NCBI GenBank assembly: GCA_949775045.1
Contig: OX459104.1
Coordinates: forward strand, 11,703,655-11,767,654
Source of the DNA: Metridium senile
Taxonomy: Eukaryota; Cnidaria; Anthozoa; Actiniaria; Metridiidae
Direction of reading: 5' to 3'
DNA length: 64,000 nucleotides
Shown here: one piece after another, positions 15,908 to 64,000 of the stretch
Numbering within the stretch: the stretch's first letter is position 1
How the letters are laid out: every line of letters starts with the position of its first letter
Notes under the pieces: generated by a model
The model's database searches: none
Told to the model about the DNA's origin: nothing
Seen by the model: only the letters and a program-made list of their open reading frames with translations
Made by a program: the position numbers and the translations under genes

Positions 15908-16157
15908 CTTGAAAAACGAATGTCGACTTGAAAAAAATGTCAACTTGAAAAATATATATCAACTTGAAAAACGAATGTCGAACTTGAAAAACGAATGTCG
16001 AACTTGAAAAACGAATGTCAACTTGAAAAAAATACCAACTTGAAAAAAATACCAACTTGAAAAAATATCAACTTGAAAAACGAATGTGAACTTCAAAAAA
16101 AATGTCAACTTGAATGAAAAAAATATCAACTTGAAAAACGATTGTCGAACTTGAATT
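15908..16157. repeat. CTTGAAAAACGAATGTC minisatellite, left arm
   Basis: Units of about 17-23 bases with variants (CAACTTGAAAAACGAATGTC, CAACTTGAAAAAAATAC) are repeated about a dozen times. The right-arm counterpart at 26757-26906 is shorter, so the array changed length after the duplication. Confidence 0.8.
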
Positions 16158-16539
16158 TTGACAAGAAAAATGCGCCATAATTCTGCGCCTCATACTCTCA
16201 TTGGTTGAGAAAATCTGGACATAATACTACTTCTATTTTCATACTGTTTGAATTGGTATCTAGTCCCAAAATAATTACTTTTCGTGCATGATTTCAACAA
16301 AATTGGTAATCTGTGCAAACCGTAATTTTTGAGACAACAGCTGCATGTTGAAATTTAAATATTAGTTATTTGGCTAGACGCAAGTAATGTGGTGTTAAAA
16401 GTTTTATTTTTTACATCGTAGCAATTTTATAGTAAAACGAATCTCAAGAGATACATGCAATACTTACATTCCTGATAACAATAACAAAAATATTACAATC
16501 TTTTAGAGGCATTGTTGCTGTTGAATATAGCGCATGATT

Positions 16540-16707
16540 TTGGTGCTTATTCTTTATTGTCAATTAAAGATGGTAATGCTAAAAGGAAGAACACCCCGAT
16601 AGTCCCGGAGAAATATCCTAGCGGCATGAGAGTGAACAACACAATAAACAAACTCTATTCACTTTTCGTCCTAGCGTGGAATCGAACTCACAGCCACCCA
16701 TGGCTTT
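16540..16707 (-). mobile_element. SINE copy, left arm
   Basis: Reverse complement of 26203-26370. A B-box-like GAGTTCGATTCCACGC is followed by a body with TATTTCTCCGGGACTATCGG, related to the other SINE bodies in the window. Present in both arms, so it is older than the duplication. Confidence 0.55.
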
Positions 16708-16739
16708 TTTAATGATAGTTCTTGAATGTTAACACATGC

Positions 16740-16860
16740 TAGAAGTTGCGGCTAGCTTGTATTGCCATTTTGCTGGCTTACGTCCATGTTTTCTAAATTA
16801 AAAGAAGACTGTGTATTTCTCGCTAGCCTGATGTTTTTAGTTGGATTATTCTGTCTTTCT
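16740..16860 (-). pseudogene. Receptor C-terminal tail remnant, left arm
   Basis: Inverted counterpart of 26060-26180. The reverse complement resembles the 3' coding end of the GPCR (AGTCTTCTTTTAATTTAGAA and CAATACAAGCTAGC) but has an in-frame stop and lies outside the receptor gene. Confidence 0.55.
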
Positions 16861-16988
16861 ATTTATTGTACAATACTGAATATATTAATAATAATAAACT
16901 ACAATTTACTTCAATCATTTCCATATATCTATATTTACAGAGCTTTCGACCTACGCGATCTTACACATTCTTAGGTTTTGAGTTTGAA

Positions 16989-19900
16989 TTATTCACTGCA
17001 CAGCAATGAATCGTTTTGATGATCCATCTTTTTATCAAAGGATAGAAGTTGTGGCTGGCTTGTATTGCAATCTTGCTTACTAACGTTCATCTCTTCTAAA
17101 CTAAAAGAAGACTGGGTATTTCTTCCTAACCCATAGTGAATTATTCCTAATTTGAAGTTAGTAATTGGATTCTTCTTTTTGATATGAAAACACGTTTAAA
17201 ACCATCACGAAACGACTGAATAAAAATAAAATAAACAAATGGGTTGAATGGTAAATGCTGACATTACTACAAGAATGTCCCAAAGTAAATCATAATCACT
17301 AACTGATGAATCATTATGCACTGCGTAAAAAACGTCCGCAATGTAAGGTATACCACAGCAAATGTAAAAAGTCAATGTTACTACAATAATAATTGACATG
17401 ATTTTTTTCCTTGCTTTATGTCTCGCTCTTTCAGCTTCAGCTTGAGGTCCAAGTGCATTGTCTTGTTTTCTTAAAGCACAAATCACACGAAGATAGAAAA
17501 TAAAGATAGCAGTTGAAGGGATGATAAACTGTGTGACCATGTAAATAGAATAGAAGGTTTTAACACTATACCAAGAGTAAACCTTTTCTTTGCATATGCT
17601 ACTTTTGTCGTCGTACCCTACTACAACCATATCAGATAATATAAAAATTAGGTAATACCTAATAGCGGAGCTCCCAGTTTAATTTTTCTTTACAACATCA
17701 ATATCTGCATGTAACTGAATAGTTTTTGTGCACTAGTCATAAATGCTGTACATGATGACGTAGGCGTATTTGTTCGTATTTGAAACAAATACTATTTCTT
17801 ACTGTTTAAGGTTACTCAAGAAAAAAAAAAGAGAAATATTAATCTGGGATATATATATTTTTTTGACTATAAGTCAACTATATTTTTTCAAAGTTTTTGC
17901 TAAAGATTAACAAAAAGATACTTTGTATGCATAACGAATTGTTGACTAAATATCTTACCCAAACAATTTTTATTTTTAAAAAACAAACTTAAAATTGATA
18001 TCACTATAGCGTTTCTAGCGGAAAAAGGGTTTTTTTCACGCGTTTCTGAAAGATTAACTTTTAGATTTCATTTGTGACAAACGTGACTTTGTGTCACGAC
18101 ACGCTAACGTGACAAGTTCTTTTTTTTGGCGCGTTTGCCAATGTCAAGGCACCTTTTTGCTTCAAATTTAATTTGCTTCAAACACAACACAAAATGCTGA
18201 GAAAAATCAAGATTTTGAGCTTCAAATTGACAAAAACATTATTTGAACTAGACCTCAATAGGATGGTAACTATTAAAAGGAAACAAGGAAATTTTAAAAC
18301 ATTTCTTTGTAAAAAAAACCTTTTGATTAATATATTAGATTTACTAAAAAGAAGTCATAGCAAATCAGTTCAAAACAAAACAAAAAGTTATTTTGAAATG
18401 TAATTAAAAGCCTCAAGAATAAGTTCTACCAACACAAGATCGATTTGAAAAGACAAGGATTTTAAAACAAGGTATTTTATTATGAAAAACTTTGTGTAAA
18501 ACATCATTTTGCTCAGTCTGTAAACAAAAAATTAACGACTTTGAAGTAAAAACTACTAAAAAAGCTCGTTTAGTAAACATAAAATAGTCAATAATGCTAA
18601 ATAAACAGAAGTTATTCAACCAAATTTGAATTATGTTTGTATTCAATTCTTCTTTGATGTTTTCCGTTTATGAGGTTTAAAAAGTACATAATTAATAAAC
18701 ACATTTTTCAATCGACCAAGCCTGAAGGCCACAAAAAGTACAATTTACACATGCACAAACATCGTTTCATGTACGGTTTTTATCTCAAAAAATAAATAAA
18801 ATGGAGATAAACCCTTTTTCTTTTCTTTCTATAACAAAACAGATAACGGATTTTTCCTTTTTGAGGCTTAATTATTGCAAGTTTTTAGGTAATTTTTTTT
18901 TCACGCTAGTAATATATCAAACAGTTTTTTTTGTCTCTCAAAAACAAATAATAATCTTGAACTTACTTTATCGGTGATTATTTTCTTGAGGTTTTCTTCT
19001 CTTCAATGACATTGATCATATTTTGACGAATTGTTTATAGTTCAAATGCCAAGCTTGAAAATCCTTCAATAAATTATGCCGAGGGAAGAGATTTAATAAC
19101 ACTTTCATAACAAATAAAGTCGCTTCTTTATCAATTATTTTAAATTGCTGTAGTCTTTAGATCTATTCTTCCGCGAAGGTATCTACAAATACGTTTTCTT
19201 GATCTCTTGTAATCAGTCTTTTGCTTTTCTTTAGTATAATATCTTCGTTTTTGTGTCCTTCAAGTTTATGTTCTTCTTCGATGACAACTCTCTTTATGTT
19301 CTTCGAAGTTCATCGTTCTCCGTTGATATTTTGTATTAATGAAAGCTCTGCTATTAGCAAGTAGTATTTTGTTGTTGTTTGTTTGTCTTTTTTTCGACAA
19401 AAGAAAACTTTGCTTTGTTGGACTAGTGCTATTTGGCGCGCGCGTCACTTTCGTTCCCGCCGAAATGTAACAGCCAATTAGCATCGCGATGGGCGCGGAC
19501 GTCGGACGTCGGACGTCGGACGTCGGACGTACGCTTGGGATACCTGTGTAAAAACCATCGAAAATAGACTCGATGCATTACCATTTTTTCTTAAGTATGG
19601 TGCTCCGCTCGCGCGGGCCTCCGGCCCGCGCGGGAGCTCCGCTATAAAATATCCAAGTCCAAAGCTCCATGCAAACACCAAAATAAACTTTAGTCTTGCT
19701 TTAGTAACGTCCCTATTAAGCCTTGAGAAGGGATGAACGATAGCTTTATAGCGTTCGTACGCCATTGCCATGAGAAGTGATGGCGAAACAGTCGATGTAA
19801 ACCAATAACACCACTCAATCTTGCAAAGTACTTCAGCAAGAATGACGCTTTGATTGTATGCTTTTGATAGTACTGGCTCACCCAAAACACCACTATAATC

Positions 19901-20098
19901 ATCCGAAAACACATAAAAAATCCCAAGAAAACCAGAAATTGCGTCGAGTATAGCAAGGTTGAGTATGATGTAATTAATCGATATCTTCATGGTTTTAAGG
20001 CGTACAATGACGTGACAAACCAAGGCATTACCAAGAATACCTACAAGAGAAATCACAATAGCAGCAAGTTTGACTACAATGTATATTATTTCAGCCAT
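16989..20098 (-). pseudogene. GPCR pseudogene, interrupted and frameshifted
   Basis: This is the left-arm copy of the receptor at 24811-25920. The first part (20098 to about 19645) encodes TM1 to TM4 and the rest (about 17638 to 16989) encodes the loop after TM4 to the tail. About 2.0 kb of foreign sequence separates them. A small deletion near 17247-17253 removes part of the NSAFNP stretch and shifts the frame in TM7. Several substitutions distinguish it from the intact copy, for example in the first residues and near TM3. It should not make a working receptor, though a truncated TM1-TM4 product is conceivable. Confidence 0.9.
17639..19642. mobile_element. 2.0-kb insertion in the GPCR pseudogene
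   Basis: Compared with the intact receptor, foreign DNA starts after CAGATA (17638) and ends before TATAAAATATCC (19643), consistent with a TA target. Both ends carry GCGGAGCTCC in inverted orientation (17665 and 19642). The left end also has an extra stretch of about 26 bases, so the left border is uncertain. The right end holds a GC-rich palindrome (19608-19642) and a short GGACGTC tandem (about 19497-19529). No transposase was found. Confidence 0.8.
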
Positions 20099-20206
20099 GT
20101 TTCCCCAGCATTTGGTAGGATTATAAACTAGAAGTGCTTCGCAAACAGTGTGAAAAATTAAATTTTAATATATTATGTAGTTTTTGTTAGCAGGTGTAAT
20201 ATCAAA

Positions 20207-24628: not shown

Positions 24629-24810
24629 CACTTCTTGCAAATTAAAATTACAAGTCAATCACATTTATTTGTAGTTCATCAAAAATATTATAATTCAATT
24701 GTATAGCATGTTACACCTGCTAAGAGAAACTACAATATTAAAATTTCCAATTTTTTCACACTGTTCACGAAGCACTTCTAGTTTATAATCCTACCAAATA
24801 CTGGGGAAAC

Positions 24811-25920
24811 ATGGCTGAAAGAATATACATTGTAGGCAAACTTGCTGCTATTGTGATTTCTCTTGTAGGTATTCTTGGTAACGCCTTGGTTTGTCACGTC
24901 ATTGTACGCCTTAAAACCATGAAGATATCGATTAATTACATCATACTCAACCTTGCTATACTCGACGCCATTTCTGGTTTTCTTGGGATTTTTTATGTGT
25001 TTTCGGATGATTATAGTGGTGTTTTGGGTGAGCCAGTACTACCAAAAGCATACAATCAAAGCGTCATTCTTGCTGAAGTACTTTGCAAGATTGAGTGGTG
25101 TTGTTGGTTTACATCGACTGTTTCGCCATCACTTCTCATGGCAATGGCGTACGAACGCTATAAAGCTATCGTTCATCCCTTCTCAAGGCTTAATAGGGAC
25201 GTTACTAAAGCAAGACTAAAGTTTATTTTGGTGTTTGCATGGAGCTTTGGACTTGGATATTTTATATCTGATATGGTTGTAGTAGGGTACGACGACAAAA
25301 GTAGCATATGCAAAGAAAAGGTTTACTCTTGGTATAGTGTTAAACCCTTCTATTCTATTTACATAGTCACACAGTTTATCATCCCTTCAACTGCTATCTT
25401 TATTTTCTATCTTCGTGTGATTTGTGCTTTAAGAAAACAAGACAATGCACTTGGACCTCAAGCTGAAGCTGAAAGAGCAAGACATAAAGCAAGGAAAAAA
25501 GTCATGTCGATTATTATTGTAGTAACATTGACTTTTTACATTTGCTGTGGTATACCTTACATTGCGGACGTTTTTTACGCAGTGCATAATGATTCATCAC
25601 TTAGTGATTATGATTTACTTTGGGACATTCTTGTAGTAATGTCAGCATTTAACTCTGCTTTCAACCCATTTGTTTATTTTATTTTTATTCAGTCGTTTCG
25701 TGATGGTTTTAAACGTGTTTTCATATCAAGAAAGAAGAATCCAATTACTAACTTCAAATTAGGAATAATTCACTATGGGTTAGGAAGAAATACCCAGTCT
25801 TCTTTTAGTTTAGAAGAGATGAACGTTAGTAAGCAAGATTGCAATACAAGCCAGCCACAACTTCTATCCTTTGATAAAAAGATGGATCATCAAAACGATT
25901 CATTGCTGTGCAGTGAATAA
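24811..25920 (+). CDS. Class A (rhodopsin-like) G-protein-coupled receptor
   Basis: One uninterrupted exon of 369 residues. The N-terminus is very short. TM1 has the GN motif, TM2 has NLAILD with the conserved Asp, TM3 ends in ERY (115-117) in place of DRY, TM6 has FYICCGIPY in place of FxxCWxP, and TM7 has NPFVY (285-289). Cysteines before TM3 and in extracellular loop 2 could form the usual disulphide. The cytoplasmic tail of about 70 residues is Ser- and Gln-rich. The ligand cannot be told: intronless receptors of this kind are numerous in cnidarians and are often peptide- or amine-receptor-like. The start is supported by the same ATG in the duplicated copy. AATAAA follows at 26042. It is the intact member of an inverted pair. 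Confidence 0.92.
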   Translation: MAERIYIVGKLAAIVISLVGILGNALVCHVIVRLKTMKISINYIILNLAILDAISGFLGIFYVFSDDYSGVLGEPVLPKAYNQSVILAEVLCKIEWCCWFTSTVSPSLLMAMAYERYKAIVHPFSRLNRDVTKARLKFILVFAWSFGLGYFISDMVVVGYDDKSSICKEKVYSWYSVKPFYSIYIVTQFIIPSTAIFIFYLRVICALRKQDNALGPQAEAERARHKARKKVMSIIIVVTLTFYICCGIPYIADVFYAVHNDSSLSDYDLLWDILVVMSAFNSAFNPFVYFIFIQSFRDGFKRVFISRKKNPITNFKLGIIHYGLGRNTQSSFSLEEMNVSKQDCNTSQPQLLSFDKKMDHQNDSLLCSE

Positions 25921-26041
25921 TTCAAACTCAAAACCTCAGAATGTGGAAGATCGCGTAGGTCGAAAGCTCTGTAAATATAGATATATGGAAATGATTGAAG
26001 TAATTTGTAGTTTATTATTATTAATATATTCAGTATTGTAC

Positions 26042-26047
26042 AATAAA
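26042..26047 (+). terminator. Polyadenylation signal of the GPCR
   Basis: AATAAA, 122 bases after the stop codon. It is the first canonical signal downstream of the gene. Confidence 0.5.
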
Positions 26048-26059
26048 TAGAAAGACAGA

Positions 26060-26180
26060 ATAATCCAACTAAAAACCTCAGGCTAGCGAGAAATACACAG
26101 TCTTCTTTTAATTTAGAAAACATGGACGTAAGCCAGCAAAATGGCAATACAAGCTAGCCGCAACTTCTAGCATGTGTTAA
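26060..26180 (+). pseudogene. Receptor C-terminal tail remnant downstream of the GPCR
   Basis: This stretch resembles the GPCR's own 3' coding end (25780-25875): GAAATACACAGTCTTCTTTT against GAAATACCCAGTCTTCTTTT, then ATGGACGTAAGCCAGCAAAA against ATGAACGTTAGTAAGCAAGA, then GCCGCAACTTCTA. Translated, it keeps the RNTQSSF motif but meets a stop. It is a leftover of a tandem receptor copy or of a tail duplication. Confidence 0.65.
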
Positions 26181-26202
26181 CATTCAAGAACTATCATTAA
26201 AA

Positions 26203-26370
26203 AAGCCATGGGTGGCTGTGAGTTCGATTCCACGCTAGGACGAAAAGTGAATAGAGTTTGTTTATTGTGTTGTTCACTCTCATGCCGCTAGGATATTTCT
26301 CCGGGACTATCGGGGTGTTCTTCCTTTTAGCATTACCATCTTTAATTGACAATAAAGAATAAGCACCAAA
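26203..26370 (+). mobile_element. SINE copy, right arm
   Basis: GTGGCTGTGAGTTCGATTCC provides a B-box-like motif. The following body contains ATATTTCTCCGGGACTATCG and GTGTTCTTCC, as in the other SINEs. Confidence 0.55.
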
Positions 26371-26756
26371 ATCATGCGCTATATTCAACAGCAACAATGC
26401 CTCTAAAAGATTGTAATATTTTTGTTATTGTAATCAGGAATGTAAGTATTGCATGTATCTCTTGAGATTCGTTTTACTATAAAATTGCTACGATGTAAAA
26501 AATAATACTTTTAACACCACATTACTTGCGTCTAGCCAAATAACTAATAGTTAAATTTCAACATGCAGCTGTTGTCTCAAAAATTACGGTTTGCACAGAT
26601 TACCAATTGTGTTGAAATCATGCACGAAAAGTAATTATTTTGGGACTAGATACCAATTCAAACAGTATGAAAATAGAAGTAGTATTATGTCCAGATTTTC
26701 TCAACCAATGAGAGTATGAGGCGCAGAATTATGGCGCATTTTTCTTGTCAAAATTC

Positions 26757-26906
26757 AAGTTCACATTCGTTTTTCAAGTTGATATTTTTTCAAGTTGGTA
26801 TTTTTTTCAAGTTGACATTCGTTTTTCAAGTTCGACATTCGTTTTTCAAGTTGATATATATTTTTCAAGTTGACATTTTTTTCAAGTCGACATTCGTTTT
26901 TCAAGT
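26757..26906. repeat. CTTGAAAAACGAATGTC minisatellite, right arm
   Basis: Shorter inverted counterpart of 15908-16157, with units such as GACATTCGTTTTTCAAGTT. Confidence 0.8.
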
Positions 26907-27590
26907 TGAATATCTCATACGGGTCATATGATAAGATAATTTATTAAGATAAAATCAGTGAAATATCAGGTGATCTCCCGCGCGAAACTGAGTGATATCT
27001 GCACAATACTACACATGTGAAATAACACGTTACCATGGATACTTCGAGCATTTTCTAGATTTTTTGATGCATATCTTGATAAAACTTTTTTTATTTCATT
27101 TGTCATGAGTATCTTAAATCAGTTGCACGCTTTTAAGGTTTGCACTCTATATTTGCACTCTAAAGATATTAATGGTTAATAAATGATTTTCATTGACTCG
27201 TTCTTGAATAGACTTAATTTTATTTTGTTTTATTCACTACCACAAAATAAAGATTTAAATAACCCTTATAAATTGGTGACCATATTACAATTTCAAAGCA
27301 TTTTTCCCATAACACTGAAGCAAATTACTTCATTTTTAAATAAAAGCTTTTTATTTATTTTTTATTCAGTAGCACAGCAGCAAAGTTATTTTTCTCTAGG
27401 CTTAAATAATCTGGACCCAAAAATATATGCATAACTTGAGCGAAACAGGTACATCTTCTAAAACTCAAACATCGACTTTCCCATGGTCCGATTTTCTTAG
27501 TGACCCATGGGTGTTATTTGATGTCGTCCCATGAGAACTTCGACGTTTGAGTTTTACCTAGCTTGCATATCTGGCGTTATGTGTACTGAC

Positions 27591-34740: not shown

Positions 34741-35929
34741 TAACTACTAACAGCTAACTACAATGTGTAAAGCGCATTTGAATATATACACATAGAAAGT
34801 GCGCTATATAAATACATTATCATTATCATCATTACTCTAAAAACGGTCAAAATTTGCATAAAAGATACCTAAAGTTTTACGGCCTCGTATTTCCTTTGCA
34901 GATTGTTTCCTGCACCAATATTCTGCCCACGTTTAGCACATTATCGTATTAGTACTGTAAGTTGAATAAAAAGTCGTGAAACAAATATTGGATTGTTTTA
35001 TAATGGGTTGAGTTATTGCTATTTTTCAGCTTTGACGAAAAGTGTAAAAATATACTCTAGAAAATAGCTATTTGCACCTATCCGGCAGTTATTCATATAA
35101 CTTTGGAACCTTTATCAGATAGTATGAGGATAGAGACAATGTTTTATCGAAAAAAAAGTCTGTAAAGTATTTATTTTTCAAGCGAAAAATAACTAAGAAA
35201 ATGATGAAATTTACATTGTTTGAAGTTGTCACGTGACAAAACTAAATATACAACAAATCTACAACACACTAAATATGATCCCGATATAATGATAATAATG
35301 ATAATAATCAATTATATGAATTAAAATAATGATATTCATCATTATATAAGATAATGTCAAACAAATAACTAAGTTTTAGGCTTGTAAGCCGAATACAGTA
35401 ATGTTTTGTCTGTCTACCTTCGGCTTTCCTATTTCTGGTAAAAACGATATTTCATAATATTTTTTTCACAATATTATCGTTTTTTGAAATAAAATAATTT
35501 TTACAGTATTAGAATTATGCATTTATTAACCTCACACACAACATGTTACAGAAATTATTGAACTCATGCGGTTGCTAAAAACAGAAACAGACAAAGTAAC
35601 AGTGTACTATATAAAACTATGTAACCTTTTTGATTTATTATTTTCCTGATTATGATCACTCTAGCTCCAGGGATATGAATACGTTTTCTCATAAAAATAT
35701 ATTGTTAAAGTTCTAGTAAGACACATTTTAATAAAAGACATACATTTTGCTTCAAGTGTTCTCTTTGCTGTTTTGCATAAATTAGAAATTGACTTCGACT
35801 AATTGGCATGTTTGGTAGACACCGACATTAATTGTCATTTTAATACGTGCATGAGTTGAGGTTAATTTTGACATACAGTAATTATTTTATGGGGGTTTGC
35901 TCTTTTCACAATCTTTCTGTGGAAAATTA

Positions 35930-36235
35930 TGGAAATTCTCGAAGAAACAATGACACCTGTTTTGTTTTGCTACTTTAAAATCTTGTACAAAGATTATCTG
36001 CACCCATCTACTTGGCTGTTTAAAAACTTCTTCCAAAGATGTGAAGTACGAGTGGGAACTTTGTCTTTTAAGAGCCGGTGTTTTTAAAACTGAAAATACA
36101 GATGATATGATATATATGTCCGCGGCATAGAGACCACTTTGGTTTAGGCTGGCGTACCAGTCGAGTCTGTAAGCATCCTGCACACGATTCTAAACAAAAG
36201 CCTACATGGGGAATGTTATGCGAAATTGGTCAAGG
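35930..36235 (+). pseudogene. Degenerate Cys/His-rich exon fragment, copy 1
   Basis: Counterpart of the frame at 61672-61947. It keeps codons for VKYEWELCLLRAGVFKTEN but has indels (an extra ATAT near 36107 and a deletion near 36205) that break the frame. Confidence 0.5.
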
Positions 36236-36630
36236 TATTTTACATCTAAGTAAGGGTTGCATTTTCGATCCCATCTGAGTTTCGGTGAAATTAAAAATAC
36301 TAAATAGTTTATTATCGTTTAAAGGAATTTTCATTGAATACTATATATATATCGACAACTAGTATTGAAGAGGTTTGAATAGAGCCGTTTCTTTTTTACG
36401 TTGAGATATCTAGAGAGTGAATAAGATGAATCTGGATTACCATCGATATCTAGAGAGCGAATAAGATGAATCTGGATTACCATCGATTTTTAAGTATTAA
36501 AATACTTGCCATTCCCGCCAAACGACTGTGAAGCGATTCAGCTCTTCCGTCAATCAAACATAATTGGTCTACTAGTGATAATTACTATAAACAACTGACA
36601 ATGTGAACAAAAAAACATATAGGTAAAATA

Positions 36631-37690
36631 TATTATTTCAAATAGAATAGTTGGTCAAAAAAATATACATTTATTTAGTTTTAACGTTCTGATACCTCGA
36701 ATACATCGTTAGGCTAAAATTTGTTTTTTAACATTAGTATGCAAGTTTTTTAATAGACAATTTGTTTGACGGAAGAGAATCGCTAACTCACTTTACGATC
36801 TCTGTTGGGCCGGCATTATTTTATTTTAATGTTATTATCACTATTATTTCATTCCATTTTTTATGTCATAATAACATGCTTTTCTGAAAGTTAACGCTAA
36901 AATGGTCAACGACCGGGAACCAGTTCGTGACAGTTGATTGTTTAGTTCTGATAATCACACTTGGCTACGCTGTCGTTGTCATTTGGATAATTTCCACGTT
37001 TTCGACTTTTATTTTACGAATCTGCTGTCTTAAAGATGTAAGTTTCGAATATTCATACATATTAAAATCAACTCAAGGCTCTTTGTTGTAATTTGAACCA
37101 TTTGATCAGCTTAGCATTATCGTTGATGCAAACTCGGCATGTTTTTGTGTGTATTTCTTTCGGAACATAAAAAAAAACAGCGTATAGTTAAAATATTTTA
37201 ACATTGTACATTTATGACTTCTTAAATCGCCCTACTACATAAGCTGTTGTTTTTAGGTAAGTATTTTCAACTTATCGGCTTTTTTAGTCGCAAATGACCA
37301 TTAGTCTTATGATTGGATACGTGTAAAAACGCGAAATTCGTGATACTGTATCTCTTCACCTTTAAAACTGTACAGACTTTTTTCTTTGTATTTGTTAACC
37401 ATTATCAGTTGTACATAAAAGTCAAACTTTATGGTTTTAAAAAGTTGCCGGATCTTGTATATCGAATTGTTAAGAATGCATACTCAAAATGTAGATTTCA
37501 TAGCCTGATATGTAAATAAGCGAAAATTTTCTTTAAACAAATATGTTTGATACTTTGATACTGTCGTTGTATGACCATAACATCAGATATATTGAATTGC
37601 AATTAAATTTTATTGGATAACATTGGTTTAATGACTTATTTTTTACGATTTAATGTATATGTTGGTCGTAGGGTTATAGTAGTAGATTAT
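36631..37690. other. Intergenic, no gene recognised
   Basis: AT-rich sequence with only short frames. I see no repeat partner or motif of note. Confidence 0.4.
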
Positions 37691-42400: not shown

Positions 42401-45400
42401 GAAATCTTGTTTGAGCTTGTGTCCTTAACTTGTTGCTGTGTTTTAGCACAAGGGCCTTTTTACTCTCAAGCTACCTCTGATCAGCCATACAACTGCTTTT
42501 TGAGATTGCTCTGAATATTTCAAACTGAGTTAAATTATTTTCATGTGAAATTATCATTGTTCAACCTGATATGAATCAGTGTCTTCAATTAAAACAATAA
42601 CGTCTACAGCTATTTTAAAAAACGTAGAATACTGAATAATGCATACTGAAAAGTACATTACAAGACCGATATGAATTTTGGGTAATGTAATATAGTTTAA
42701 AGTAAAATAAATATAAATTAGTTCTTTTATTCTTACTGCATCACATTCAAAGCAATACACGAACTAGTTATGGGGAGTAAAGATCGCTTTATATATAATT
42801 TTAATTTCAATTTAACAAAACCCACAATGCCGTTTGGTCTTGAAATACACTATAAAGTATTCAACTTTTTTTTTTTTGAAATAGCTGTATATTTTCAATC
42901 GAATTACCTCATTGCTTGTATTGCATTTTTCACCTCTGTCTTGGTTTGTGTAGACTGGAAACTGTATTTCAAATTTGGAAATGTGCTGAACAAAATTACG
43001 CCCACATGGGTTCCTTTTGGAGATACATTCATGGCGTCCACCAAGTTTTGGACCGTTCTTCGTACTTTTTTAAAGTTATTCCTTCCGACGCTACCCGATT
43101 CATCTATAACAATGCCAATGTCCAAGACTTTGTCACAAGCTAAAATGTGATCAAAAATTAAAATTATGTATTGATCAGTTTAATTTTCATCATCATTATA
43201 ATGCAACCATATCATCATCATTGCCATATCATAATATTGTATATTTGAGATATAGAGTTATGCATATAGATAAATAGATATGTAGTTGAATGATACCCGC
43301 GATAGGTTGAGCACCGTTTTGACGAAATTATGACAAATCTGTATCACGCTCACGCACTGAACTCAATGGTTTCTTTTGAAGATTTGGCAAATCAGAAACA
43401 AACACACAAAAATGTGTTATTTTCACACACAAATTTAATTCATTGTTTATTTTTAGAAAATGAATTTAAAAAAATTGTGTAAAAAGGCAACGAAAAACTC
43501 TTAAAAATGTCTCTAAAATGACACCAAACTAGACGAGTCCAAAACTGCTAAAAATGGATAGCTTTTTAATTAATCCTGAACAGTGCAATAAAAAGCATAT
43601 TTTATTTGTTAAATAAGAAGGCATTTCACTAAGACAAAGGAATAGGACGACAGGAAGTACAACGAAACATTGAATGATAGTCACTACCACTGAGTCGTCA
43701 TATCATTCTCACCATCATAATTAGACCTTCAGCATTTAACGAAATAAAAAAGAAAGAAAATAATAAGGACATCAGGAGTAAAAACACAATATTGAACTCT
43801 ACGCATGGCAAACAGTCGTAGCTCAGATGAGGACGTAGGGCGACATGTGCTTGTGAAACGCAGTGAAACTGTTGAAAAGTAATTATCGGCATTTATTTTA
43901 TTCGTATAATCGTTTTAGAAAAAAACATAATTTTATGTAGGCATTTTTGAAGTTTAGTGAAGGAAATTACACCGTTCAAGAAGACTTAATGAAAATTACC
44001 GCGCACATTTGGTGAAAGTGTGTTTTTCATTAATTCTTCGAGAACTAAGGTGGAAGTTCCTATTAATAGTACATCTACATAAAATGCGAGTCTCAGATGA
44101 AAAAGGCAAAGAATAAACACAAACAAGCCGCAAAACACACTAGGAAGGACGCGTGCAATTAATTAATTGTTATTAATCCAACGCATTCATTGCGATCGTT
44201 TATCATCGCGCGGTTTCTATTTACAGCCGTGTAAAAATCAAGCTACTTACTTCGTGTACATTCTTCTTTATTACACACTCTTGTTTGTGAGCTACGACCT
44301 AAACTGGAACAATCTTTGCCGTTTCCTTGTTGTTTAGGATTGGTACACGTTCTTGTACGTTCTTGTACGCCACCGCCACACGTCTTGGAGCAAGCTGACC
44401 ATGTACTGTATTCACTGTAACCGCCATCAATATCTGGGATGCATTTTTGGCTATTACATTTTTGTGTTTCTTTTGCTGCACCTAAACCGGTACAATCTTT
44501 GCCGTTTCCTTCAGGTTTGGGATTGGTACACGTTCTTGTACGTTCTTGTACGCCACCACCACACGTCTTGGAGCAAACTGACCATGTACTGTATCCACTG
44601 TAACCGCCATCAATATCTGGGATGCATTTTTGGCTATTACATTTTTGTGTTTCTTTTGCTGGACCTAAACCGGTACAATCTTTGCCGTTTCCTTCAGGTT
44701 TGGGATTGGTACACGTTCTTGTACGTTCTTGTACGCCGCCACCACACGTCTTGGAGCAAACTGACCATGTACTGTATCCACTGTAACCGCCATCAATATC
44801 TGGGATGCATTTTTGGCTATTACATTTTTGTGTTTCTTTTGCTGGACCTAAACCGGTACAATCTTTGCCGTTTCCTTCAGGTTTGGGATTGGTACACGTT
44901 CTTGTACGTTCTTGTACGCCACCGCCGCATGTTTTCGAGCAAGCTGACCATGTACTGTATTCACTGTAACCACCGTTGATACCTGTTTTGTTAAAGTATA
45001 CACATTAATAATAAGTTTTCTTATCAAATTAAAAAATATATAAAATGAATTACATGTCTTACTATTTATCAGTTTATACACATAGTTTGTCGTAGTAACC
45101 CCAACACAAACAGCGTCGTTCTCATCAACACAGGAACTTTCAAAATTTGGTATACACTTGCTTGGATCTGCTTTCCCGTGTTTAGCGTAATCACCGTTTC
45201 CACCCCAGCATTCACCGTAATCTTGGAGGCCAAAGTATTCGTATCCTTCTTCTCTTGTTTTGGCAGCACATCGACATGCAAGTCTGTGGCAAACAAACAA
45301 ACAAATAAATAAATAAAAAATATATAGATAAATGGATATATAGATAAAAAATATATAAAAACATATAAATAAATATATATATGAACGCATGAAAAAATAA

Positions 45401-60386: not shown

Positions 60387-62316
60387 AGAGCGAGTCCGCG
60401 TGAAAACCATGCAGACCAGTCTACACCGTACACCACCGATTTTCTTCAAACTTAGCTCGATTGTACATCTTAGTTAACTTATTACTTTGGTGATTTTTTT
60501 TGGCTTTAAATTAAAAAGGCTTAAAGTTACAACCGTTTGAGTATTTTACCCTAAAACGGTCAAAATTTCCATAAAATATACCCAAAGTTTTACGGCCTCG
60601 TATTGCCTTTGCAGATTGTTTCCTGCACCAATATTCTGCCCACGTTTAGCACATTATCGTATTAGTACTTTGAGTTGAATAAAAAGTCGTGAAACAAATA
60701 TTGGGTTGTTTTATAAAGGGTTGAGTTATTGCTATTTTTCAGCTTTGACGAAAAGTGTAACAATATACTCTAGAAAAGAGCTATTTGCACCTATCCGGCA
60801 GTTATTCATATAACTTTGAAACCTTTATCAGATAGTATGATGATAGAGACAATGTTTTATCGAAAAAAAAGTCTGTAAAGTATTTATTTTTCAAGCGAAA
60901 AATAACTAAGAAAATGATGAAATTTACATTGTTTGAAGTTGTCACGTGACAAAACTAAATATACAACAAATCTACAACACGCTAAATATGATCCCAATAT
61001 AATGATAAGAATCATAAGAATCAATTATATGAGTTAAAAAAATGATATTCATCATTATATAAGATAATGTTACAACAAATAACTAAGTTTTAGGCTTGTA
61101 AGCCGAATACAGTAATGTTTTGTCTGTCTACCTTCGGCTTTCCTATGTCTGGTAAAAACGATATTTCATAATATTTTTGTCACAATATTATCATTTTTTG
61201 AAATAAAATAATTTTTACAGTATTAGAATTATGCATTTATTAACCTCACACACAACATGTCAAAGAAATTATTGAACTCATGCGGTTGCTAAAAAGAAAA
61301 ACAGACAAAGTAACAGTGTACTATATAAAACTATGTAACCTTTTTGATTTACTATTTTCCAGGGATATGAATACGTTTTCATAAAAATATATTGTTAAAG
61401 TTCTAGCAAGACACATTTTAATAAAAGACATATATTTTGCTTCAAGTGTTCTCTTTGTTGTTTTGCATAAATTTGAAATTGACATTCGACTAATTGGCAT
61501 GTTTGGTAGACACCGACATTAATTCTCATTTTACGTGCATTAGTTGAGGTTAATTTTGACATACAGTAATTATTTTATGGCGGTTTTCTCTTTTCACAAT
61601 CTTTCTGTGGAAAATTATGGAAGTTCTCGAAGAAACAATGACACCTGTTTTGTTTTGCTACCTTTAAAATCTTGTACAAAGATTATCTGCGCACCCATCT
61701 ACTTGGCTGTTTAAAAACTTCCTCCAAAGATGTGAAGTACGAGTGGGAACTTTGTCTTTTAAGAGCTGGTGTTTTTAAAACTGAAAATACAGATGATATG
61801 ACAATATGTCCGCTGCATAGAGACCACTTTGGTTTAGGCTGGCGTCCCAGTCGAGTCTGTAAGCATTCTCCACACGATTCTAAACAAAAGCCTGCCAGAG
61901 GTGGACATGCAAAGCGTATTTCTCAAGAGATATTCGAAACATGGTGAATGTTATGCGAAATTGGTCAAGGTATTGTTACATTAAGTAAGGGTTGCATTTT
62001 CGATCCCATCTGAGTTTCGGTGAAATTAAAAATATTAAATAGTTTATTATTTATAGAATTTTCATTGAATGCTATATATATTGACAACTAGTATTGAAGA
62101 GCTTTGAATTGAGGCGTTTCTTTTTTACGTTGAGATATCTAGAGAGTGAATAAGATGAATCTGGATTACCATCGATTATTAAGTATTAAAATACTTGCCA
62201 TTCCCGCCAAACGACTGTGAAGCGATTCTCTTCCGTCAATCAAACATAATTGGTCTAGTCTAGTGATAATTACTATAAACAACTGACAATGTGAACAAAA
62301 AAAACAGCTAGGTAAA
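60387..62316. repeat. Copy 2 of the 1.9-kb direct duplication, uninterrupted
   Basis: Matches 32884-33046 plus 34834-36630 in order. Landmarks are GCGAGTCCGCGTGAAAACCA, CACTATCTTTGCC-type flanks, TCTGTCTACCTTCGGCTTTC and TATCTAGAGAGTGAATAAG. It contains the better-preserved Cys/His exon. Confidence 0.8.
61672..61947 (+). CDS. Cys/His-rich module fragment, likely transposon-associated
   Basis: An open frame of 91 codons. Visible pattern: KYEWELCLLRAGVFKTEN, CPLHRDHFGLGWRPSRVC, KHSPHD, then KKPAR-like GGHAKRISQEIFETW. The CPLHR...GLGWR...C.H..H spacing suggests a zinc-binding module that I know from uncharacterised cnidarian proteins. There is no partner exon nearby that I can join with confidence. 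The decayed counterpart at 35930-36235 shows the module was copied with its surrounding 1.9 kb. Function unknown. Confidence 0.4.
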   Translation: MYKDYLRTHLLGCLKTSSKDVKYEWELCLLRAGVFKTENTDDMTICPLHRDHFGLGWRPSRVCKHSPHDSKQKPARGGHAKRISQEIFETW

Positions 62317-62513
62317 AAATATTATTACTCGGGATTCCTGTGGAATCACCGAGTTTAGGATTCGGCATTGTTATTTTTCGTCGTCGTCGCCAAAATGCCG
62401 CGCACGCGCAGTATGGTCGAAGTTCTGAGTTACGTCATTCACGTGATCAGAACTCGTGGCGAGGCGTCCATTTTGCTTCTCGCTTTGACAGTGGAGTAAT
62501 TAGTTTTCAAGGT

Positions 62514-62735
62514 ATGGATTCAACGTCTTTAAATACGCTCAAATCGCTTACAAATTCACACACCATTCGCGGTATAGCCACACTAAAAGATGTCGAGCGT
62601 TTTCGTAAAGGGCATTTAGAGAGATACCGCGAATTTATCGTGAAACTGCCTATCGCCGGTGAAACTTATCGTGAACTATCTATCAAACAAGCTACCTATC
62701 TATTCAAAAGAGACTTATATTTCAGCTTATACTAA
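62514..62735 (+). CDS. Small ORF directly upstream of the 2A/protease frame
   Basis: 73 codons from the ATG after TTTTCAAGGT (a longer in-frame start exists at 62340). The product is rich in charged residues (DVERFRKGHLERYREFIVKL) and ends at 62735. The next frame is open without a stop from about 62675, so the two overlap by about 60 bases. The reading appears to continue across (LTLEAQRTQLQNLNKG in the new frame). This could be one protein with a frameshift, a programmed shift, or two separate ORFs of the same element. Confidence 0.4.
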   Translation: MDSTSLNTLKSLTNSHTIRGIATLKDVERFRKGHLERYREFIVKLPIAGETYRELSIKQATYLFKRDLYFSLY

Positions 62736-62869
62736 CTCTAGAAGCACAACGAACTCAACTGCAGAATTTGAACAAAGGTCTACCGAGCAAAAAACGAGGA
62801 TTGCAAGCATTTACTACCTGTGTTTACAGTCAACCATGTGACTCTCAAAGCAAGGCGACCTTCTCAAAC

Positions 62870-64000
62870 ATGAACACTTCTTTCGTACTCATAATAATGC
62901 TAAGTACATTGCTTCTTTTATTACTTTTAATTCAAGGAAATATTTTCTGTTTTCCCTATTTAATATTAGTAACTTTATTAGGGTACAAAACAGTCAACTT
63001 CTTCGACAATCACTGCTATACTCAAACTGTTGTCATTTCATCGTTTAGTGATTGTGATATGTTAGATACGACTAGTTGTTTGACTGTACATGTATATAAT
63101 GATGCAGAAGTCACAATACAGATTACAAATAATACCAGATCTCGTTATTCAAGGTTTGTTTATTATAATTATAGACATGTACGTTATCATCGTAATCGTG
63201 AACCAAGTAGAATACCAACACGATTAATAAGGCGTTTAGACACCAAAAGTAGAAAGCTTAGACGGGTTGTTTATCATAGAATACGCCTAAATGTACCCAG
63301 GTCTTCTAAGTTACATAATTATATCAACTGTGTAAAGGTTAAAAGCAAGCATTTTATATCAAAGTTCAAGAGGATTGGAACGTATACTCGAGCATTTATT
63401 TCTCAAAGAAGGTTCAAATGTAAAGCTAGTCGGTATATATCTTTGCTTTCTTGTGATAGACCGATGTCTCTTTATAAGACTCAGTCACATGTGATGAATT
63501 ACTGTCAGTCTAAACTATATAATGATATAGAGAAGAATCCTGGTCCTAATAATACACTATATGTTGATGCAAGCAAGACAATAACAGCACCATATAGCCA
63601 AGGTAATGCTTTCATCTTTGGACAAAATGCAGGACAACAATGTGTTGCAATGAGTTTATGTTCTTTAATATATAATGACAATCATGGAATTAATTCATCA
63701 AGTGATCTTGTAAAGATAATGAACATTGGAAATCAGTTATATACACGATTATCGCAATCAGCAAAACAGTCATTTCTCATGCAATCAGAACTACCAACAA
63801 TTTTAAATGTGTTTGATACTGATTATGAACTTCAATATAGTAAGAGTTTTACAAGTAATCTACAACAAGAAACTATAATAGAAGGATATGAAAACTTCAC
63901 TTCATTACAAACAGCATTCCAATCTTTAATGTCTGACAATTTTACCAATTTCATATTAACAATAGGGTGTACTGCTGTTGCTATATATTGTCATGGAGAT
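62870..64000 (+). CDS. Partial transposon ORF: basic region, 2A ribosome-skipping motif, cysteine-protease-like domain
   Basis: 377 codons without a stop, running off the window. The first ATG is at 62870, although the frame is open from about 62675. Residues 4-35 are strongly hydrophobic. Residues about 80-200 are very basic. Residues 219-226 are DIEKNPGP, the conserved core of 2A peptides, where the ribosome skips the final Gly-Pro bond and releases two products. The downstream product would start at P226 and contains GQNAGQQCVAMSL with candidate nucleophile C258, like the active-site segment of OTU/C76-type cysteine proteases. I associate such proteins with Helitron-like elements of cnidarians and other invertebrates. 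The His-containing half, and any Rep/helicase, lie beyond the edge. Assignment to Helitron is inference; the 2A motif is seen directly. Confidence 0.7.
   Translation, partial: MNTSFVLIIMLSTLLLLLLLIQGNIFCFPYLILVTLLGYKTVNFFDNHCYTQTVVISSFSDCDMLDTTSCLTVHVYNDAEVTIQITNNTRSRYSRFVYYNYRHVRYHRNREPSRIPTRLIRRLDTKSRKLRRVVYHRIRLNVPRSSKLHNYINCVKVKSKHFISKFKRIGTYTRAFISQRRFKCKASRYISLLSCDRPMSLYKTQSHVMNYCQSKLYNDIEKNPGPNNTLYVDASKTITAPYSQGNAFIFGQNAGQQCVAMSLCSLIYNDNHGINSSSDLVKIMNIGNQLYTRLSQSAKQSFLMQSELPTILNVFDTDYELQYSKSFTSNLQQETIIEGYENFTSLQTAFQSLMSDNFTNFILTIGCTAVAIYCHGD

Follow-up and report, generated by a model that had tools for sequence, protein, structure and literature searches.

Does a DNA transposon use a 2A (StopGo) ribosome-skipping peptide? 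The question is raised by the right-hand end of the window, a stretch of 64,000 nucleotides from Metridium senile (G000:C10:11703655-11767654 of a 389-Mb assembly), where a Helitron-type reading frame encodes the octapeptide DIEKNPGP. The region 62870-64000 has 56 matches across the assembly. To our knowledge, 2A recoding is regarded as largely viral, with non-long-terminal-repeat (non-LTR) retrotransposons and sea urchin NLR proteins as the cellular exceptions. Very probably, the window stops inside an autonomous but damaged Helentron, an endonuclease-bearing rolling-circle Helitron, of which it holds 5′ sequence; the 2A would split a membrane leader from a deubiquitinase–RepHel polyprotein. 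The simplest reading of this architecture is that StopGo parts a membrane-bound leader from a replicase destined for the nucleus.

The preliminary description had placed DIEKNPGP at 63524-63547, and the exact motif lies there on the + strand. It is the sole match to [DGCN][VI]E.NPGP in the six frames of the window, and it carries the StopGo core (D/G/C/N)(V/I)ExNPGP in a frame that is open on both sides, between two coding parts. The cysteine-protease-like segment announced for about 30 residues after the 2A was also found: the block GQNAGQQCVAMSL starts at nt 63620, 24 residues past the octapeptide. From amino-acid composition, 1.5e-5 matches to D[VI]E.NPGP and 8.7e-5 to the expanded pattern are expected per window. 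A purely accidental octapeptide, in a frame that is unrelated or does not code, thus has practically no probability; this reading is also refuted by the conservation of the motif in relatives and by the 172 exact sites of the degenerate 2A pattern in the genome (83 forward, 89 reverse), against none for the reversed-pattern control.

The frame bearing the 2A is open from 62675 (stop to stop) through the end of the window and on to the window-equivalent position 64510, which corresponds to 330-2165 of L009, the sequence that continues beyond the window (adding 62345 to an L009 position gives the window coordinate). In L009 and L010, Pfam finds the remainder of the C76 domain together with DUF6570, Helitron_like_N (113 bits) and PIF1; the PIF1 region is split by an insert of ~3.7 kb and continues in L010. 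Because these domains lie past the window, the window copy is read as a damaged autonomous element. The extension past 64000 thus reveals the Helitron-type polyprotein that had been proposed, with homology to protease (PF04843), Rep (Helitron_like_N) and helicase (PIF1), and the order of domains in the element and its relatives bears out a 2A placed before a cysteine-protease domain. A stop or frameshift shortly after 64000 in all copies had been named among the signs against this proposal; of the signs named, the only one seen is damage in the window copy, with a frame ending at 64510 and a leader split by frame changes, and stop-free copies exist elsewhere. By eye, the insert in the PIF1 region (L009 6360 to L010 ~90) contains a 297-residue open stretch with HYHAAIKL (HUH-like) followed by GAANCGKT (superfamily 3-like); Pfam returned no match for this stretch, and the insert is possibly another Rep-bearing mobile or endogenous element.

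Undamaged versions of the same arrangement are present in the genome. The HUH Rep and PIF1 lie on the same strand, broken in L009 and in single frames in L035 and L025/L029. L035 is one open frame of 2677 residues with the 2A at 368-375, an OTU domain at 410-496, DUF6570 at 924-1053, Helitron_like_N at 1222-1420, PIF1 at 1985-2167 and Exo_endo_phos (PF03372) at 2488-2665, the last at 24.7 bits against a cut-off of 24.5; a second frame of 2677 residues lies on C14. Five VTD matches (among 140 scored, of 453 candidates) fall in stop-free frames of 2701-2906 residues. The 2701-residue frame (L025/L029) holds leader, 2A, VTD, DUF6570, Rep and PIF1 in two fetched parts, and Pfam gave no endonuclease match at E<=0.001 in L029. 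A C-terminal endonuclease is found in the same-genome relatives L035 and L019, in both just above the cut-off (PF14529 at 27.7 bits against 27.4 in L019, where PF03372 is below its cut-off). Among proteins, a search from the Rep part of P0122 gave 305 matches, and the 120 listed among them include single frames combining 2A, DUF6570, Helitron_like_N and PIF1; all five relatives that were scanned hold these four in one frame. The RGSPHxH (HUH) motif occurs in seven of eight examined relatives and a Walker-A-like pattern in four of the eight, truncated proteins included.

At the 5′ end of the element, similarity of the flank stops in the alignment just ahead of a palindrome at 62327, which has a 12-bp stem and a hairpin z of -4.9 and occurs once in the window. 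The palindrome is found with 0-1 mismatch in 8 of 20 fetched stretches (L011, L013, L014, L015, L017, L020, L023 and L025), each time after TT and with otherwise differing flanks; L026 and L027 start with another palindrome, likewise after TT. In the Helentrons and derivatives described before, palindromic subterminal inverted repeats (subTIRs) lie 2-4 bases inside the 5′ end and the target is TT (PMC4067079), and the window and the eight copies show both. No related locus was found among viruses and prokaryotes in scans of viral_contigs with the palindrome, a single protein, A1 and A3, or of genome_contigs with A3.

Is the 2A conserved in this family? One search returned 165 homologues, and the three named organisms among the 120 listed are corals. 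Among 107 proteins that span the site plus five flanking residues at either end, D[VI]E.NPGP is present in 84, the expanded core in 85 and NPGP in 93. The Cys block of the protease occurs in 120 of 242 proteins, 110 of them with at least 40 residues upstream; the 2A is present in 100 of these 110, and the other ten comprise nine with a substituted or shortened motif and one (P0187) with none. In alignment A1 (24 proteins with 35-71% identity to the query), the motif residues E, N, P, G and P are invariant, and of 262 columns ranked by entropy, x is number 160 and the residue that follows the Pro is number 238. This punctuated conservation suits a recoding motif better than the conserved edge of a domain. 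A tree of the DUF6570-Rep region was built from 32 of 92 proteins, 60 being set aside as truncated, and the 2A is present in 12/13 and 15/19 rows on either side of the midpoint split. The rows without it are P0158, P0160 and P0186, which start inside or after the protease, and P0187 and P0238, which include the Cys block.

The part behind the 2A had been described as protease-like, with OTU and C76 named as the families to look for. In the window it is C76/VTD (PF04843), and an OTU version exists elsewhere in the genome (L026, L035). The domain has the VTD/C76 fold; its catalytic Cys lies inside the window, and it is completed beyond by the D-x-H motif FDSHARD in the L009 translation. With loose patterns, the Cys block is seen in 78/83 and a D-x-H-like motif in 50/53 relatives that are long enough. 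The C76 cut-off of Pfam is passed by P0142, P0220, P0230 (Hydractinia symbiolongicarpus) and P0233, and P0194 has PF04843 in the precomputed list only. A second VTD-like region is visible by alignment only, with no Pfam match. L026 shares its leader with the window, at 86.9% identity across 1003 aligned DNA bases, and there the leader is followed by SGDIESNPGP and an OTU domain (E 3.6e-14). This exchange bears on the view that the octapeptide is conserved as a linker or protease site and is cleaved post-translationally by the VTD or OTU domain next to it. A cysteine protease domain does directly follow the octapeptide in the examined proteins, which were largely found via that domain. However, the same octapeptide precedes two different protease folds, it is unlike the C-terminus of ubiquitin, and it agrees with the StopGo core position by position, with x free. 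Post-translational cleavage is therefore very improbable.

Two types of leader precede the 2A. Leader A, the type in the window, has 320-432 residues in measured examples and a basic REPSRIP region; hydrophobic segments are present in nine of ten proteins, the tenth (P0154) having none above 1.6 on the Kyte-Doolittle scale. Its strongest hydrophobic segment starts at residue 117-164 and ends 202-285 residues before the 2A Gly in all eight proteins measured. For the leader protein P0025, AlphaFold2 gave a model of low overall confidence (predicted template modelling score 0.28), too weak for a structure search. The leader also contains RGRP, which we take to be AT-hook-like. Leader B (12 proteins) has 62-86 residues, or 169 in P0225, and starts roughly MI..EAYR..IG.F; the 19-residue stretch of highest hydrophobicity ends 7-25 residues ahead of the Gly (12/12 measured, weak in P0194). 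No pair of leaders A and B was similar at E<1e-3 among 28 A and 12 B leaders, all selected for having the motif. In the leaders of the scanned proteins, Pfam gave nothing above cut-off and weak sub-threshold matches only. In the DUF6570-Rep tree, leader B is present in the first group and recurs in the second in P0194, whose place is unsure because of its long branch. The sequence upstream of the 2A also differs between the types: leader A has L at p9 in 28/28, S or C at p10 in 25/28 and G at p11 in 7/28, and leader B has G preceding D in 11/12 and L five before D in 12/12.

The position of the hydrophobic segment depends on where the protein starts. The preliminary description began the product at 62870 and gave it a signal-like N-terminal stretch, which is probably wrong for this family, since the putative start ATG is upstream at 62514, at the position equivalent to that where relatives and the intact genomic frame L035 begin. 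To judge from the alignment with relatives, the ATG at 62870 is probably internal, and the hydrophobic stretch of the leader is therefore internal too; in L035 it begins ~130 residues after the first Met. For leader A, an N-terminal signal peptide was considered and judged unlikely: the segment is internal, and L035 and P0016 lack an N-terminal one; P0036 and P0173 (2/8 measured) and also P0060 differ in having an additional hydrophobic stretch near the predicted N-terminus. These features bear on dual targeting, in which a leaky 2A would leave some uncut polyprotein membrane-bound, as reported for the 2A signal sequences of sea urchin NLRs. The stretches of P0036, P0060 and P0173 favour it, as does leader B, where the hydrophobic residues lie close to the Gly as in the sea urchin sequences (PMC4981915). 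Nevertheless, the large distance to the Gly in leader A and the bare N-termini of L035 and P0016 make dual targeting unlikely.

Features of the element in the window and at its left junction
Feature	Position	Strand	Basis or remark
Flanking sequence marking the left junction	60546..62326	+	self-BLAST: 89.8% identical to 34832-36637, ends at 62326
TT at the 5′ edge of the element	62325..62326	+	common to the window and 8 fetched palindrome copies
Palindromic 5′ terminal repeat ACTCGGGATTCC-TGT-GGAATC-A-CCGAGT (Helentron-type subTIR)	62327..62354	+	
Leader part 1, from putative start ATG 62514, MDSTSLNTLKSLT..RGIATLKDVERFRKGH	62514..62650 (right limit approximate)	+	tblastn of P0016, P0047, P0048; intact counterpart in L035
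Leader part 2, second frame, copy broken here by frame change	62650..62808	+	tblastn of relatives
Leader part 3, third frame, runs into 2A	62816..63523	+	open frame and tblastn
Hydrophobic segment(s) of leader	62870..63004	+	measured on relatives; two adjacent helices in AlphaFold2 model of P0025
Conserved basic region RSRYSRF..REPSRIP..K.RKLR of leader	63137..63310 (approximate)	+	alignment A1
2A/StopGo octapeptide DIEKNPGP	63524..63547	+	skip predicted after Gly 63542-63544, before Pro 63545-63547
Beginning of the deubiquitinase domain (C76/VTD), with the codon of the catalytic Cys at 63641-63643	63548..64000	+	Pfam PF04843; structure of relative P0013

The genomic copies show how the motif has been maintained. 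The octapeptide is intact in four Rep-bearing copies (L009, L011, L018 and L019) and in the long frame of L025. Between the window family, L025 and L026 there are silent codon differences at D, I, E, K and G, and the residues are kept except for I/V and x; as an informal comparison, this speaks for constraint on the octapeptide. It also bears on the possibility that a once-active 2A came with a captured module and is now a mostly non-functional relic. Such decay would fit the many damaged copies, including that in the window, the 22 of 107 homologues that depart from the expanded motif, and the decayed L013, L016 and L034, which retain NPGP. On the other hand, the long stop-free frames of L035 and L025 keep the motif, the residues are unchanged across families despite the silent differences, and the 2A is retained on both sides of the deepest split of the tree, so that a relic is improbable.

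A subfamily of 11 truncated copies (L013-L017, L020-L025), which match L009 only to 1529 and retain the leader region together with the beginning of the VTD, are likely non-autonomous derivatives; the palindromic 5′ end was found in seven of them (L013, L014, L015, L017, L020, L023 and L025). Among 100 listed sites of the 172 in the genome (C1-C7), 22 are within 500 bases of a scored VTD match and nine within 1.5 kb of a leader/OTU match. The share assigned to Helentrons is a lower bound because only the best candidates were scored; L036, one of the 21 sites (of 69 unassigned) that share the most frequent DNA word, is by eye a decayed OTU-type copy, and part of the remaining sites may be retrotransposons. 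On C2, two octapeptides at 16086668 and 16086869 (minus) lie 67 codons apart at a 909-residue open stretch matching the OTU query, and are a possible tandem 2A.

From these features, an intact frame would have ~2,700-2,900 codons and encode first a leader that has hydrophobic segment(s) and ends in a basic tail, then the 2A and the deubiquitinase (VTD/C76, or OTU in a sister family), followed by the second VTD-like region, lysine-rich repeats, DUF6570, HUH Rep, PIF1 helicase and endonuclease. On reaching the 2A, the ribosome would let go of the leader behind the Gly and continue translation from the Pro. One mRNA would then give a leader that stays with membranes and a soluble deubiquitinase–RepHel able to enter the nucleus; if skipping did not occur, the replicase would remain attached to a membrane anchor. 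The deubiquitinase may guard the replicase from degradation, an idea that derives from the K48-directed VTDs of Erven et al.

Several observations weigh against this scheme. First, the 2A is absent from 5 of 32 long relatives with the Cys block; P0187, which lacks it, has 302 residues ahead of the Cys block, and P0216, P0218, P0235 and P0238, also without it, begin just 18-26 residues before that block. In P0216, P0218 and P0235, the predicted start Met is at or beside the position of the 2A Pro, and these proteins are either truncated predictions or come from a lineage in which translation begins with the protease part itself. Second, P0154 and P0194 have no strong hydrophobic segment. Third, the full leader is not expressible from the window copy: homology is spread over three frames (62523-62708, ~62650-62808 and from 62816), with two frame changes preceding 62870. 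Its p10-p11 are YN instead of SG, so that skipping efficiency is uncertain despite the common L at p9. Fourth, NTG replaces NPG in 9 of the 11 truncated copies, probably as one inherited change, and NPGP is kept in two of the 11 and in the decayed L034; retention of NPGP is thus not confined to intact elements. Finally, 69 of the 100 listed genome sites are near neither a VTD nor a leader/OTU match.

Helentrons are already known to carry VTD and OTU domains (Erven et al. 2022, PMC9741609), and one Helitron VTD structure, 8add, has been solved (PMC9741609). The main text of that paper has no NPGP, skipping or StopGo, and no leader-2A was seen there. The APE-type non-LTR retrotransposons (Odon et al. 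2013) and L1Tc of Trypanosoma cruzi likewise combine a transposable element with an in-frame 2A, but are retrotransposons (PMC4981915). In sea urchin NLRs, the 2A is likewise linked to a hydrophobic targeting segment; there, however, the 2A itself is N-terminal and acts as the signal, whereas the Helentron 2A follows a leader of 62-432 residues (PMC4981915). The viral StopGo sequences in PMC12846837 share the core (D/G/C/N)(V/I)ExNPGP; their p12 = D class with LLLLSG-like context resembles leader B, which fits the viral classes better than leader A (L at p9, mostly S/C at p10). No paper joining Helitrons or DNA transposons with 2A was found among the papers listed from the open-licence PMC literature, which makes this a weak negative.

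We consider it likely that in cnidarian Helentrons the 2A acts as a fixed hinge, with leaders (of two dissimilar, mostly hydrophobic types) and deubiquitinases exchanged on either side, and that it is the first 2A system of a DNA transposon, with membrane and nuclear products. If so, a conserved 2A in DNA transposons would add to the list of 2A systems a replicative mechanism that passes through neither an RNA nor a capsid stage, and raises the question of why a transposon needs a membrane leader. The module swap, with the same leader and VTD or OTU behind the 2A, would be a natural record of cassette exchange. Erven et al. suggested a Helitron origin for the herpesvirus tegument deubiquitinase (PMC9741609), and the swap at the 2A may bear on how herpesviruses acquired it.

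Elsewhere in the window, self-BLAST showed a 97% inverted duplication between 16001-17638 and 25265-26907. The open frames at 24742-25920 (+), 17205-17678 (-) and 19478-20164 (-) are presumably seven-helix-receptor-like. Four near-identical repeats are present at 44243-45004 (-), as judged from self-BLAST and open frames, and we take them to be thrombospondin type 1-like.
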